The position numbers were made by a program, and so were the translations under genes. Below are positions 5,722-42,183 of a DNA stretch of 64,000 nt, one piece after another. The notes below the pieces were generated by a model, which saw only the letters and a list, made by a program, of their open reading frames with translations, searched no databases and had not been told where the DNA came from. Numbering within the stretch: position 1 is the stretch's first letter; every line of letters begins with the position of its first letter. This stretch comes from Candidatus Thiovulum imperiosus (GTDB lineage Bacteria > Campylobacterota > Campylobacteria > Campylobacterales > Thiovulaceae): positions 1 to 64,000 of the forward strand of contig JAMJTW010000024.1 in the NCBI GenBank assembly GCA_024281175.1, in the 5' to 3' direction.

Positions 5722-7969
5722 TTGATAGAAAGAAAAAAGATTTACAATCCAAATTCCGATGAAACAACTAGCGATAGAAAGGTTGTTGGTGGAGACCCAA
5801 CAGGGATTTTTGAACTCAATGATATTAAATATCAATGGGCTTATAACCTTTGGGAAGTTATGTTAAATAACACTTGGTTTAAATAGAGACCAAGTAAAAC
5901 CCCTTGAATTGCTGGAAACTCTCAAATAGACAATCAGCAGGTAAGTAAATTGGTTTCCAATTTAAAACTTCAACGACTATCGAAAAGGCTTAATTTTTTA
6001 AGGAACTGAGTAGAGTAGGATACAAGCCAATGGTATTCCGAAGCGGGGGGAACTCGAAAGAGTTATGATATAGTCTAATCTATGTAGAAATATGTAGCAG
6101 TTCATAGGAGAACGGGCAAGAAGTTGCGATTTTTGTTGAATATATTGTCCAAGAGAAGTAAACATGTCTGGAGATGTAAAAGATTATGAAAATCTATCTA
6201 ATAGGGAGAAGAGTTCTTACGATAAAGCATTGTCGCAACTTATATTTATGGACTCTCTCCAAACAAATAATGTGATAGATAATATCAATCCTTATGTTAC
6301 AGCTCCAGAAATAAATTTAGTATTGGTTCGTCAGAGCTTCGAGGAGGCATTGCACTGCTATGTCGAGGGAACTGAAGTTCTAACAAAAGATGGTTTTATA
6401 GATTTTAGAGAAGTAAAAGATGATACACAAATTGCAAACTATCATGAAAATGGAGATGTAACTTTTTCTTCTCCAACAGAAATTATTGTTGGGGATTATG
6501 ATGGAGAGATTTTCTCTTTTACAGGTCAGCGATACAATGTTTCTGTTACTCCTAATCATCGAATGGTAAGATGGAATACACGAGAGGGAAATCGATTTGA
6601 AACCCTTTTGGCTGAAGATATTTCACTTCACAATCACAAAGCTCCAGTTAGTGGATATTTGAAATCTGAAAAAGAGTTAGAGTTCTCTCCTTTAGATAGA
6701 CTAAAAGTGGCATTTCAAGCTGATGGAACTGTTACAAATGGTGGAAACTTTACAGAACATGGAGTTATGTATAAATTCTATTTAAAAAAAGATAGAAAGA
6801 TAGAGAGACTTTTACAAATTTTAGAAGATGGGAATTTCAAACACTCTATAAAAGAGGCTGGAGAGTATAAAAATATATATGCATGGTGCAAAGAGGAGTT
6901 AGATAAAGAGTTTGATTGGGTAAAACTAGATGAGATTACACTATCTTGGGGACTCTCTTTTATTGAAGAGCTAACTTATTGGGACGGCTCAAGAAGTGGC
7001 GGACTTTTAAGATACTCAAACACAAATGAGAAAGCCATAAATAAAGCCACCTCTGTTGCTACGGTTTGTGGACTTCGAGTTGGTGTTAATAAAAGTAAAA
7101 CATCTGGTTTTCATGGAGAGGATTTAGGAGAGAGAAGTAGAGACTATTGGACTCTAAATTTTGTGGATACAGATTATGTTTCTGGAAGAAGTATTGAAAA
7201 GAGAAAAGAGAGTTATCAAGGGAAAATTTACTGCGTTACAGTTCCATCATCTTATCTAATTGTGAAACATAGAGATAAGGTAGCTGTTTCTGGAAATTCG
7301 CAATCGTACGCCGTAATGGTCGATAGTATCTCTCAAAAATCTGATGAGATTTACCAACTTTGGCGAAAAGATATGATGTTAAAGTCGAAGAATGATGCTA
7401 TTGCAAAAGTTTATGAAGATTTAGCAAAAAATCCAACAGAGCGGAATTTTTTGAAATCGCTTTTTGCAAATCAGATATTAGAGGGTATCTACTTCTATTC
7501 AGGTTTTGCCTATATTTACGCTCTTGCAAATAGTGGAAAGATGTTGGGAAGTTCTCAAATGATAAAATTTATAAATCGAGATGAACTTACACACCTTACT
7601 CTTTATCAAAACATGATAAAAGATTTGAGAAGAGAGAAACCTGAACTCTTTACAGTCGAACTCATTTCAGAAGTGAAAGAGATGTTTCAGAAAGCAGTAG
7701 AGTTAGAAGTATCTTGGGGAAAATATATTACAGATGGAGAAATTCTTGGTCTCTCAGGAACAGTTTTAGAGAGATATATTCAATATTTGGCAAATGAGAG
7801 ACTTAAAAAAGTTGATATTGCTCCAATTTATCCAGTTGAGAAAAATCCTTTAAAATGGGTTGAAGATTTCGCAAAATTCAACGACACTCGAACAAACTTT
7901 TTTGAAGGAAATGTTACAAACTACTCAAAAGGAAATTTAGAGTTCGAAAATAATTGGGATAAAATTTAA
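5722..7969 (+). CDS. nrdB: Class Ia ribonucleotide reductase beta subunit, with group I intron and intein
   Basis: Small subunit of ribonucleotide reductase, which holds the diiron-tyrosyl cofactor and supplies the radical that lets NrdA make deoxyribonucleotides. The best start is TTG 5722, preceded by AGGA (5712-5715), giving the family N terminus [12 protein letters not shown]. Exon 1 is 5722-5879 and exon 2 is 6148-7969; joining them restores NNTWFPREVNM in frame. Exon 2 encodes the iron-ligand motif EEALH, then an intein, then [10 protein letters not shown]; a second ligand motif is DELTHL. The spliced mRNA encodes 659 residues, and removing the 314-residue intein leaves 345, the usual NrdB size. 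Without RNA splicing, translation stops at TAG 5884-5886. nrdA is not in the window. Confidence 0.92.
5880..6147 (+). mobile_element. Group I self-splicing intron in nrdB (268 nt, no ORF)
   Basis: The conserved core elements occur in order: P/Q region (AATTGCTGGAAA, then GACAATCAGCAGGTAAG) at about 5907-5944, R element TTCAACGACTA (5969-5979) and S element GATATAGTC (6067-6075). R GACTA and S TAGTC pair as P7. P1 forms between the exon end ACTTGGTTT (5872-5880) and AGACCAAGT (5887-5895), with a U-G wobble at U5879/G5888 that marks the 5' splice site. The intron ends with G6147, and exon 2 resumes in frame at 6148. It encodes no homing endonuclease, so it is a minimal ribozyme that may be mobilised only in trans. 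Confidence 0.93.
6356..7297 (+). mobile_element. NrdB intein with DOD-type homing endonuclease domain (314 aa)
   Basis: Starts at Cys (TGC 6356-6358), directly after the EEALH iron-ligand histidine, and ends at Asn (AAT 7295-7297) before the +1 Ser of SQSYAVM. Block A is [14 protein letters not shown]; block B is [10 protein letters not shown] with the TxxH core; block F is [14 protein letters not shown]; the C-terminal junction is SGN|S, with Gly rather than His before the Asn. Between the splicing blocks lies a LAGLIDADG-like segment, [13 protein letters not shown], and a second YWDGSR segment, so a homing endonuclease domain is probably present. It sits in the active-site sequence, a typical intein target. 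Confidence 0.93.
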
Positions 7970-12476: not shown

Positions 12477-12483
12477 AAAGAGA

Positions 12484-12498
12484 AGAGTCTTTGACTCT
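12484..12498. terminator. Small hairpin between convergent genes
   Basis: AGAGTC-TTT-GACTCT lies between the stops of the channel gene and the convergent PhoH-family gene. The stem is short and has no strong T run. Confidence 0.35.
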
Positions 12499-12500
12499 CT

Positions 12501-13457
12501 CTAATCATTAAAGATTTCGCTTTCAGCCCACTCTGTAATTTTTCCCCGAACAACTTTATTCAATTCAACAGCATAAACATTTACTGTATCAAACTTCTTA
12601 TCCATTTTAGAGAGTAGTCTTGTGAGTGATGAGGTGTGTTTGTTTAAGTAGATGTTATCTATCTGTCTTAAACTTCCAATAATAACAACTTTACAATCAT
12701 CAGCAACTCTTGTGAGAATTGTTTTCATTGTTTTATCAGAGATGTTTTGAGCTTCATCAATAATTACAAAAGCGTCATGAATTGTTCTACCTCGAAGCTC
12801 TCCAACCCACATTGTTTCAATACCGTACTGCTCTATGATTTCACCCATTCTCTCTTCACTGATTTTAGCTTCACTCTCTTTATTTACACCCTTTCGATTT
12901 GAGTTGCTAACTCGACTCTTCTCTCTTAAAATAAAATCTAAACTATCATAAAGAGGGTGGTTGTAGATTGCGAATTTTTCAGAGTTACCTGAAAGAAAAC
13001 CAACCTCTTCACCCTTATCTAAAGACTCAATAGAGTTTCTTATGTAGACAATTCTGGAGTACTCTTTTCGTTTTACAAGTGAAATTGCTGATGAGAGAGT
13101 AAGTAGAGTTTTTCCAGAGTTATGAGAAGAGATACCATCTAAGTAGTATTGGTGTTTTAATGAGTTTACCTCTAAATCATAAACTTTCTCTTTTCCTAAA
13201 AATCTCTTTTGCAGAAGATAGACAATACCATTTTCTCTTAAAATTGGGATTTTCTCATTTAAATCTTTTGCAAAAACCCAATCTCCATTTAAAGTTTCAA
13301 AAAGGTGATTGTGGGCAACACTTAAAATTGTTCCATCGGCAAAAATCAGTTCATAACTATCTTCATACTTTTCAAAAGTATCTACAACTTCTTGAAGACC
13401 ACTATCTGTAACTATCTTACATCTATATTTGTGAAGTTGTGAAATATCTATTTTCAT
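12501..13457 (-). CDS. PhoH-family ATPase C-terminal half, preceded by an intein C fragment
   Basis: 318 residues. Residues 1-113 are an intein C-terminal segment ending SHN, and residues 114-318 begin SGKTLLTL, the second half of a PhoH Walker A loop, followed by Walker B FVIIDEAQNIS and the IGSLRQIDN motif of PhoH-like ATPases. The Walker A start, and the PIN or other N-terminal part these proteins usually have, are not encoded upstream, where fur ends. The ATG overlaps the fur stop (ATGA) and has AAGGA 7 nt before it, so this is a translated gene and not the tail of a longer frame. Most likely the N-extein is made elsewhere and joined by protein trans-splicing. PhoH-like proteins are poorly understood ATPases linked to RNA metabolism. 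Confidence 0.85.
   Translation of the reverse strand: MKIDISQLHKYRCKIVTDSGLQEVVDTFEKYEDSYELIFADGTILSVAHNHLFETLNGDWVFAKDLNEKIPILRENGIVYLLQKRFLGKEKVYDLEVNSLKHQYYLDGISSHNSGKTLLTLSSAISLVKRKEYSRIVYIRNSIESLDKGEEVGFLSGNSEKFAIYNHPLYDSLDFILREKSRVSNSNRKGVNKESEAKISEERMGEIIEQYGIETMWVGELRGRTIHDAFVIIDEAQNISDKTMKTILTRVADDCKVVIIGSLRQIDNIYLNKHTSSLTRLLSKMDKKFDTVNVYAVELNKVVRGKITEWAESEIFND
13119..13457 (-). mobile_element. Split-intein C fragment (113 aa) in PhoH-family gene
   Basis: Residues 1-113 contain block B-like SVAHNHLFE, block F-like KVYDLEVNSLKHQYYLDG and the C-terminal junction SSHN|S, all needed for C-terminal cleavage and ligation. Block A with the catalytic first Cys or Ser, normally in the first ~25 residues, is missing. 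A short N fragment with a ~110-residue C fragment is the layout of atypically split inteins such as AceL-TerL. No endonuclease domain is present. A decayed, inactive intein remains possible. Confidence 0.8.
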
Positions 13458-13888
13458 AAATTATCCTTTTGACACTCTTTGCAAATTCCAAACATTTGGA
13501 GAGAGTGGTCTGTTATTTTAAAACCAAAAGAAGAGGCTATCTTCTCTTGGAGCATCTCAATTTCTGGATTTAGAAACTCTTCTATTTTTCCACATTTATT
13601 ACAGATAATATGGTCATGATGCTCTTTTGTGAGTTCATACTGTTTAACTCCACTATTTATAAAAGTTGTTACAAAATTTTCACTCTCAAGAAGGGAGAGA
13701 GTTCGATATACAGTTGCAATACCAATTTTAGGATTTTGCAAAGAGTGGTAAAGCTCTTCAGAAGAGATATGACTTTTTGAATTATATATCGCTTCTAAAA
13801 TCTCTTCTCTCTGTTTTGTAAATTTCAGCTCATTTTTTTTCAGTAGTTTCTTAAATTTTTCCAAGATATTTTTGTAACTATTTTCCAT
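13454..13888 (-). CDS. fur: Fur-family metalloregulator
   Basis: 144 residues. Winged-helix DNA-binding domain (about 20-90, with KFTKQREEIL and GIATVYRTLSLLE) and a dimerisation domain with HHDHIICNKCGK and a second CxxC (CKEC, near 136-139) that binds structural zinc. Length and motifs fit Fur; PerR, also present in Campylobacterota, cannot be fully excluded. The stop overlaps the start of the split PhoH gene, so both are probably one transcript. Confidence 0.85.
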   Translation of the reverse strand: MENSYKNILEKFKKLLKKNELKFTKQREEILEAIYNSKSHISSEELYHSLQNPKIGIATVYRTLSLLESENFVTTFINSGVKQYELTKEHHDHIICNKCGKIEEFLNPEIEMLQEKIASSFGFKITDHSLQMFGICKECQKDNL

Positions 13889-40489: not shown

Positions 40490-42016
40490 ATGAGACTATT
40501 TCTAATTTTTATTTTGGCACTTCCACTTTTTGGTAGAGAAGCAGAATTACTAGAGAAGCCAGTTTTTGAGAGAAGTTTAGAAAGAACTTCAGAAACCTAT
40601 CCAACTCTTTTGGAAGATAACACCTCATCAGACAACTACAACAGATTTCTGAAATCTGAACATTTTCGAGTTATTTTTGGAAGAGATAGAGATGACGAAG
40701 TTCTTTTAGAAGCTCGAGGAAATCAGATTTTAAAATGGGCTGAAAACTCTTGGGCAGTAGAAGTTAAAGAACTAGGTTTTCAAAATCCAAGAAACACAGA
40801 GAGATACTTTTTAGATATCTATATTGGAAATAGAGATAGCTGGAATGGAGAGAAAGGAGGATATGAGACTATTTCTGGAATGGGTAGAGCATCTACATAT
40901 TCAGATGGAACTGCTTATATGGTATTAAATCCAAAATACACTGATGAAATCTTGCAATCAACTGTGGCTCATGAATTCTTTCATACTATACAGTATAAAT
41001 ATCTTGAAACAAATTTGATGTCAAATGAAGTTTGGTCTTCAAATATCTGGTTTCTTGAAGCGACGGCAATTGCAATGGAAGAGGAAGTAAACTCTACAAA
41101 TGATGACTATATCTCTTTTTTAAACGACTATTTTGATTATACAAATTTGGATTTAGATGACTCAAGAATATCTTATGGAAAAGGTCTACTTTTTAGATTT
41201 TTTGCAGAGAGAGATGGAGATATGGAAGTTGTAAAAGATACTTTGGAAAGAGCAGATACAGAGACTCCTCTTTTAGAAGTTTTAGAAAAGAGGGAGAACT
41301 TTAGAGAAGACCTTACAGAGTTTGGAGTTTGGCTTAAAAATCCAGAAAAGTATTTCCAAGATGGTTCAAAGTATACGGGTGTAAAAACTGGAAACAGTGT
41401 TGCTGGAAAGTATGGATTTCTTTTTCTTGATGGTGATGAGACTTATCTCTACTCTTCAAATCCTCAATACTCTCAAACTACATTCTCTGGAGAAACTGGA
41501 GTTGTAAAAGATTTAGAAAATGGACTTATAGTTTGTAACTTTTCTGATGAGGTTCTAAAATTGGAAACTATAAATAAGAATTTCTTAAAACAGATAGAAC
41601 TTCAAAAAGGGTGGAATATGATAGGAAATCCATTTCAAGAGTATCTCTATTTAGAAGAGTATTTTCCAGATGATTTGGTTTGGATTTGGAGAGATGAAAA
41701 GTATGTTGGATTCTCGAAAAAGTATAGTGCTGAAATTCAGAAATATGCGTATTATACTGCTCATATTTACCCTGGGGAAGGTGCTTGGGTCTACTCTGAA
41801 AATGATAGAAATGTCTCTATTTCAGGAACTGAACTTGCACCTTTTCCAGAATTTTCTGAAGAGTATAAGTTTGTAGCTTTTGGTAGCTCATTTTCAGACA
41901 TGAATGGAACTATTTTTCACTATGAAAATGGTTGGAAAGTTTATGGAGTAGAGACAGAGTTTCCAGAACTTGAAGAGATAGAGCCTATGAAAGGCTATTT
42001 TATAAAAGGGGACTGA
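40490..42016 (+). CDS. Secreted HExxH metalloprotease with C-terminal GWN module
   Basis: 508 residues. Signal peptide (about 1-15, ending FGRE), then a zincin-like domain with VAHEFFHTIQYKY (HEFFH near 161-165) and a downstream WFLEATAIAMEEEV glutamate-rich helix. Residues about 365-450 form a GWNMIGNPF...W.Y module also found twice at the start of the giant protein at 56077. The stop is supplied by the miniature element inserted at 42009: the last codons read IKGD-TGA, and after the element the same 8 bp and GAG-TAG show that the protein probably once ended IKE. Confidence 0.72.
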   Translation: MRLFLIFILALPLFGREAELLEKPVFERSLERTSETYPTLLEDNTSSDNYNRFLKSEHFRVIFGRDRDDEVLLEARGNQILKWAENSWAVEVKELGFQNPRNTERYFLDIYIGNRDSWNGEKGGYETISGMGRASTYSDGTAYMVLNPKYTDEILQSTVAHEFFHTIQYKYLETNLMSNEVWSSNIWFLEATAIAMEEEVNSTNDDYISFLNDYFDYTNLDLDDSRISYGKGLLFRFFAERDGDMEVVKDTLERADTETPLLEVLEKRENFREDLTEFGVWLKNPEKYFQDGSKYTGVKTGNSVAGKYGFLFLDGDETYLYSSNPQYSQTTFSGETGVVKDLENGLIVCNFSDEVLKLETINKNFLKQIELQKGWNMIGNPFQEYLYLEEYFPDDLVWIWRDEKYVGFSKKYSAEIQKYAYYTAHIYPGEGAWVYSENDRNVSISGTELAPFPEFSEEYKFVAFGSSFSDMNGTIFHYENGWKVYGVETEFPELEEIEPMKGYFIKGD

Positions 42017-42183
42017 CCAAATAGAGTATTTTTATGCTTTAATAACCCATATGTCATTTCGAACCCTTCAGGGTGAGAAATCTTTTACATAACTTTAGGT
42101 AAAAGGATAATCTTTCAAGATTTCTCAATCACTTCGTTCATATCGAAATGACAAGAGAGGCAGAAGCCTATTTGGTCACTCCC
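42009..42183. mobile_element. Miniature inverted-repeat element, copy 2 (175 bp)
   Basis: Left end GGGACTGACCAAATAG (42009-42024) and right end CTATTTGGTCACTCCC (42168-42183) are inverted repeats, 15 of 16 matching. Perfect 8-bp target duplication TATAAAAG at 42001-42008 and 42184-42191. Same length as the copy at 418-592 and about four fifths identical by eye, sharing the internal TGTCATTTCGA...TCGAAATGACA palindrome. Inserted over the stop codon of the metalloprotease gene. It fills most of the gap to the next gene. Confidence 0.9.

Follow-up and report, generated by a model that had tools for sequence, protein, structure and literature searches.

A PhoH2 encoded by two distant genes of Candidatus Thiovulum imperiosus that are very probably joined by an atypically split, phage-like intein

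Cyanobacterial DnaE is made from two chromosomal genes that are unlinked; a naturally split intein ligates their products, its split being canonical (about 100 + 36 amino acids) and without an endonuclease remnant. To our knowledge, naturally dispersed split-intein genes are very rare in cellular chromosomes, with cyanobacterial dnaE as the well-known bacterial case, and the atypically split inteins described so far come from phage or metagenome contigs. Dassa and colleagues reportedly described, in 2009, a fractured-gene layout in which an endonuclease lies between the split-intein halves. Here we analysed a PhoH-family ATPase gene within a stretch of 64,000 nucleotides from Candidatus Thiovulum imperiosus (Campylobacterota; assembly GCA_024281175.1, contig JAMJTW010000024.1, positions 1 to 64,000; hereafter the window) together with a partner gene elsewhere in the same genome. 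We conclude with high confidence, judging from sequence, that the only PhoH2 of this bacterium is encoded by two far-apart genes whose products would be joined by a class-1, atypically split (VidaL-like) intein of phage 'fractured gene' origin. The unlinked-gene layout resembles that of cyanobacterial DnaE, but DnaE is a different host protein with a canonical split, whereas the split of this PhoH2 is atypical and phage-like.

Atypically split inteins with an intein N-fragment (Int-N) of 15-25 amino acids have been described as VidaL, AceL TerL and PolB16 OarG (PMC10189870, PMC11923092). The bacterial intein shares this atypical split and has its best PDB match in VidaL; unlike the described examples, its Int-N is followed by a tail of about 180 amino acids, and its splicing is a prediction. 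Fractured genes in which an endonuclease separates the two parts of a split intein are documented as well (PMC7891396), and a further source (PMC8899391) credits phage fractured genes with a split intein and a Vsr-like (EDxHD) homing endonuclease to Dassa et al. 2009. An intein in a phage PhoH was noted for Campylobacter phage vB_CcoM-IBB_35 (PMC3322345). Within our partial coverage of the literature, we came across no earlier description of a bacterial PhoH with a split intein.

The genome examined is a draft of 36 contigs (98.4% complete), in which the window is part of contig C24 and the partner half lies on contig C7. The parts of the window gene are as follows:
12501..13457, minus strand: phoH2 C-half gene, intein C-fragment plus C-extein, 318 amino acids, ATG start
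13119..13457, minus strand: intein C-fragment (Int-C), 113 amino acids, with start MKIDISQLHKYRCKIVTDSG, block B NHLF (His51), block F VYDLEV..KHQYY and block G SHN (His112, Asn113)
12501..13118, minus strand: C-extein, the part of the PhoH ATPase that begins with the second half of Walker A (SGKT, Ser+1), includes Walker B (VIIDEAQN) and runs up to the stop codon

The first-pass annotation had read the first 113 residues of this gene as intein C-terminal sequence ending SHN/SGKT (the slash marks the splice point), which was borne out by comparison with inteins of known structure: Int-C (residues 1-113) matched VidaL (6vgv, E=2e-7) and gp41-1 (6qaz, E=1e-5), and its block B His, block F and terminal SHN line up with both. 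Pfam and NCBIfam intein models gave only weak scores. The marks of a class-1 C-fragment, NHLF, YDLEV..KHQYY and SHN/S, are all present when Int-C is aligned with VidaL, gp41-1, the viral contig L031 described below and the intein of Salicola phage SCTP-2. PF02562 (PhoH) matched residues 98-311 (E=2e-44), and the C-extein spans residues 114-318.

The window gene is the only PhoH hit above the family cut-off in the genome; a PF02562 match on contig C2 (L003, C2:4007) was ATPase-like but too weak to count. A PIN_4 search returned two places, C7:11394-12764 and L027 on contig C18; the latter, a PIN domain inside an Hsp70-like protein, lacks the P-loop half and the Cys and was rejected as partner. 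The C7 gene encodes 456 amino acids: a PIN domain (PF13638, E=3e-19) plus linker of 259 amino acids ending ...VVISNAKAG, then CSMAGSSVEIEPIPEW..., then the tail. Its Int-N opens with Cys1 straight after the N-extein (NAKAG/CSMAGSS, block A CSMAGSSVEIEP), as in class-1 inteins, and the tail of about 180 amino acids that follows is devoid of intein blocks. With an Int-C of 113 amino acids (>100) and an Int-N that appears to be of the short class (about 15-25 amino acids), the intein is split atypically. This gene is the partner that the first-pass annotation had predicted, a PhoH/PIN N-half with the first part of the P-loop, a Cys and a short Int-N. That annotation had named a missing partner, or a full-length second PhoH with this copy untranscribed, as grounds for giving up the idea; the draft genome contains the partner and no full-length PhoH. 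Its estimate of roughly 25 Int-N residues was right as to the shortness of Int-N, but some 180 more residues, with a decayed Vsr-like nuclease, follow.

Joining residues 1-259 of the N-half to SGKT... of the window protein yields a sequence that is colinear from end to end with intact PIN-PhoH proteins, with the junction NAKAG/SGKT and the PhoH2 (PIN-PhoH) architecture of a PIN domain in the N-half and a PhoH ATPase in the C-half. The Walker A loop is cut between the G and the S of AGSGKT, and the P-loop is uninterrupted at this exact point in all 80 bacterial relatives compared (80/80), mostly as A[KR]AG/SGKT. Because the break is inside the nucleotide-binding loop, the unspliced halves should lack ATPase activity.

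With Cys1, the block B His, His112-Asn113 and Ser+1 in place, the pair should undergo ordinary class-1 trans-splicing. The N-half gene would yield the PIN domain up to NAKAG of Walker A followed by the short class-1 Int-N with Cys1, and the window gene would yield Int-C (113 amino acids, His-Asn end) followed by SGKT (Ser+1) and the remaining ATPase, neither half having an intact ATP site before splicing. After translation, the two fragments would bind each other; Cys1 would undergo an N-to-S acyl shift, transesterification to Ser+1 would follow, and cyclisation of the Asn would leave NAKAG ligated to SGKT and the P-loop whole again. We infer that both genes are expressed, that splicing occurs and that the ATPase depends on it. 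Split enzymes that work without ligation exist, and the two chains might associate non-covalently, or the C-intein might do no more than cleave itself off; no tool result speaks for such a two-chain PhoH, an ATP site is unlikely to arise from two chains when the break falls between the G and the S of AGSGKT, and the conserved Cys1, Asn113 and Ser+1 fit full splicing, so that we regard this as highly improbable.

The surroundings of the C-half comprise the following features:
13461..13470, minus strand: ribosome binding site of the C-half, AAAAGGATAA
13454..13888, minus strand: gene of a fur-family regulator that precedes the C-half and overlaps it
12483..12499, minus strand: weak terminator-like hairpin directly 3' of the C-half (2 in the region versus 0.7 expected)

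The C-half start codon and the fur stop codon overlap as ATGA (13454-13457), with AAGGAT a few bases upstream of the C-half. The own ribosome binding site and the fur overlap noted in the first-pass annotation were thus both seen, and its statement that no N-extein lies upstream also holds, fur being there instead. On C24, aroB, pseG, fabH and plsX are nearby, and a transporter-like gene abuts the other side of the C-half. On C7, the N-half is neighboured by a transaldolase gene (with leuS further up) and by a YraN-like gene, which its stop codon abuts; rlmN, thiE, fliM, fliA and flhF are nearby. Neither locus is in a prophage-like setting, and the halves are at least about 24 kb apart even if C7 and C24 abutted at their nearest ends.

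A repeat of about 165 bp, resembling a miniature inverted-repeat transposable element with inverted ends CCAAATAG...CTATTTGG, occurs in more than 40 copies on many contigs of the genome, including C7 and C24. Copies on the window contig are at 420-584 and 42011-42175, these being the nearest to the C-half and none close by, and on C7 a gap of 53 bp separates the end of one copy from the downstream start of the N-half. Because both contigs carry this repeat family, they belong to one genome. The draft state of the assembly and the repeat next to the N-half would suit an artefact in which a contiguous or tandem gene was mis-assembled onto two contigs. However, no mis-assembly could account for the halves being apart, since the C-half overlaps fur and the N-half adjoins YraN; with the transporter-like gene on the other side of the C-half, there is no room for the other half. 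No repeat copy lies near the C-half, and each half has its own intein fragment, which makes an artefact very improbable.

The same split was found on a T4-like viral contig. IMG/VR contig 3300026484_000346 (L031), which encodes a T4-type head-closure protein nearby, carries a split PhoH2 in tandem: the N-half (670 amino acids, AEAKAG/CSLPGSNVDIE...) is overlapped by ATGA by the C-half (MKIDVCNLDKYQGKI...FSSHN/SGKTLL). The N-exteins of virus and bacterium are both 259 amino acids long, Int-C is 51% identical and the C-extein about 53%, and all splice residues are kept. L031 thus shares extein family, cut, Int-C, Int-N and a helical tail with the bacterium, but its halves are in tandem with a complete-looking nuclease (IIEFNGCAWH), whereas those of the bacterium are dispersed. 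Viral scans for the split intein returned L031 only, with L033 carrying a different, contiguous intein; none of the 80 viral PhoH loci listed, which do not include L031, was split at the Walker A point.

Fractured genes of the same kind were seen in further phages. LR756500.1 (L035:1575-4846) holds an unannotated split PhoH with the same Walker A cut and a free-standing Vsr-like nuclease between the pieces. In Pseudomonas phage PA5oct (L036:2209-5215), UvsX is encoded by two genes with a split intein, cut at the equivalent position GESG/SGKS: gp276 (annotated as hypothetical) is the N-extein with an Int-N of 17 amino acids, gp275 is a Vsr-like nuclease and gp274 is the C-half. The UvsX of PA5oct-like phages is cut in the same way. 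In Salicola phage SCTP-2, this intein sits in UvsX in its contiguous form; because that contiguous intein shows the same two parts, both bacterial intein fragments add up to one whole Hint domain. The phage fractured genes (LR756500 PhoH, PA5oct UvsX, PTm1 DNA polymerase) resemble the bacterial case in the cut at an intein site, the Vsr-like endonuclease, the short Int-N and the long Int-C, LR756500 at the same P-loop site and PA5oct at an equivalent one. They differ in that their pieces are adjacent with a free-standing, complete-looking nuclease, whereas the bacterial halves lie on C7 and C24, with a nuclease remnant fused behind Int-N in place of a homing endonuclease gene between adjacent halves. 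The first-pass annotation had likened the gene to atypical splits of phage and metagenomic origin, which fits as regards the parts but not the arrangement, which here is chromosomal and dispersed.

The closest annotated-phage relatives of the PhoH2 C-extein are Campylobacter Firehammerviruses (60%), which are uninterrupted at the Walker A site; the PhoH2 exteins of vB_CcoM-IBB_35 and CPt10 are close relatives of the bacterial one (58-60%). The PhoH of these two phages is also intein-invaded, but at Walker B rather than Walker A. That of CPt10 (L065:2248-5241), annotated as a disrupted pseudogene, has an apparent second split intein at Walker B (VIVDE/CLHED...LSKN/CQNIS) with an endonuclease between the halves; PhoH genes of Campylobacter phages CP21 (L063) and IBB_35 (L060) are listed beside it, IBB_35 having the contiguous form. 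At yet another PhoH site, IMGVR_UViG_3300033485_000006 (L169, around 4001) has a PhoH open reading frame of 803 amino acids with the intein-like end YIVTHN/SDEKF.

The tail of the L031 N-half ends in a complete-looking, fused Vsr-like homing endonuclease, although L031 has only a weak Vsr match in Pfam (E=0.14). Of the bacterial tail, the first ~125 residues scored 226 when aligned to the L031 tail (1000 shuffles reached at most 74), and the last ~70 residues scored 72 against the L031 nuclease (1000 shuffles reached at most 63); between these parts, about 150-200 residues of L031, with DNA-binding-looking repeats, are missing in the bacterium. The bacterial tail keeps YDFAIPEKK and has LYLCRGKEG, without WH, in place of the catalytic IIEFNGCAWH of L031; of the remaining Vsr-like phage nucleases in the alignment, all but F379 have a similar stretch. 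The bacterial tail accordingly lacks the Vsr-like (EDxHD) pattern YDF...IE[FY]xG..xH. The bacterial endonuclease is thus most likely dead and the splicing residues kept.

This decay raises the question of whether the whole gene is a dead remnant, that is, a captured fractured phage phoH2 that was split by rearrangement and whose fragments are decaying, non-splicing pseudogenes. The clearly decayed endonuclease would fit, as would the absence of PhoH2 from the other four genomes of the family, which makes it dispensable in the clade. However, decay is confined to the nuclease: both frames are intact over 259 + 205 extein residues, and in a protein about 50% diverged from the viral copy, the PIN start IDTN, Cys1, the His of block B, the His-Asn of block G, Ser+1 and Walker B (VIIDEAQN) have all been retained. 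We therefore consider a dead remnant unlikely, though less so than an artefact or a two-chain enzyme, and retain the trans-spliced PhoH2.

A search with the N-tail found no second split case in 397 genomes of the class, nor did an Int-C profile in 397 genomes of the phylum (L030 and L151 being weak matches), and the four other genomes of the family gave no PhoH match. Scanning contigs of 84,980 species for the Int-C end with short exact patterns, which would miss distant ones, returned none. In the protein tree, the window sequence has a long branch and groups with Campylobacter phages, L031 and Arcobacteraceae but has no firm sister among them, and L031 as sister of the window extein was not rejected (approximately unbiased test, p-AU 0.229).

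Because phages have adjacent pieces and complete-looking nucleases whereas the bacterium has dispersed pieces and a decayed one, its PhoH2 would most simply have originated as a phage fractured gene. The split probably arose in phages through a Vsr-like homing endonuclease, an enzyme that the L031 virus still carries as a fusion to its N-half; the split gene would then have entered the bacterial lineage, where the halves separated and the endonuclease decayed. The extein tree, which lacks firm sisterhood, leaves transfer from phage to bacterium as the probable direction.

Several points count against a functional, trans-spliced PhoH2. The split pair was seen in one cellular genome only, and splicing, expression and a protein product are predictions from sequence. 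The region upstream of the N-half has no clear promoter and its ribosome binding site is weak. AlphaFold gave low-confidence models of the window protein (predicted local distance difference test, pLDDT, 52) and of the L031 tail (pLDDT 36), neither good enough for comparing folds, and in a draft of 36 contigs the distance between the halves is a lower bound.

More tentatively, and with somewhat less than even confidence, the gene may be a domesticated phage fractured gene: phoH2 split in Walker A by a homing endonuclease now dead, with halves at unlinked loci under different control, one behind fur and one behind a mobile repeat, forming a post-translational AND gate. If so, PhoH2 activity would depend on two expression inputs coinciding. 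All stages are represented, from the intact gene (80 relatives) through the tandem split with an active-looking endonuclease (L031) and the three-gene fractured form (LR756500) to dispersed halves with a decayed endonuclease (the bacterium), and the route from homing element to obligatory trans-spliced bacterial protein becomes directly testable. A new split intein with a short Int-N is also on offer for protein chemistry.

The genome appears to be rich in inteins. In the window, the ribonucleotide reductase beta gene nrdB (6164-7969) contains a contiguous intein of 314 amino acids at 6356-7297 (plus strand), big enough for an endonuclease domain, and apparent contiguous inteins were seen in a DnaB-like helicase, a GyrA/ParC-like topoisomerase and an NrdA-type reductase (C34:33697-34896, C34:60049-61164 and C13:5685-5933; L152, L155 and L154). 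In the Hsp70-like protein on C18 (L027:190-2166, minus strand), the PIN_4 domain is apparently inserted in the ATPase domain. On C7 (L048:823-4014, plus strand), a protein of 1063 amino acids carries, close to its end, a match to an EACC1-associated caspase-like domain that falls short of the curated cut-off.
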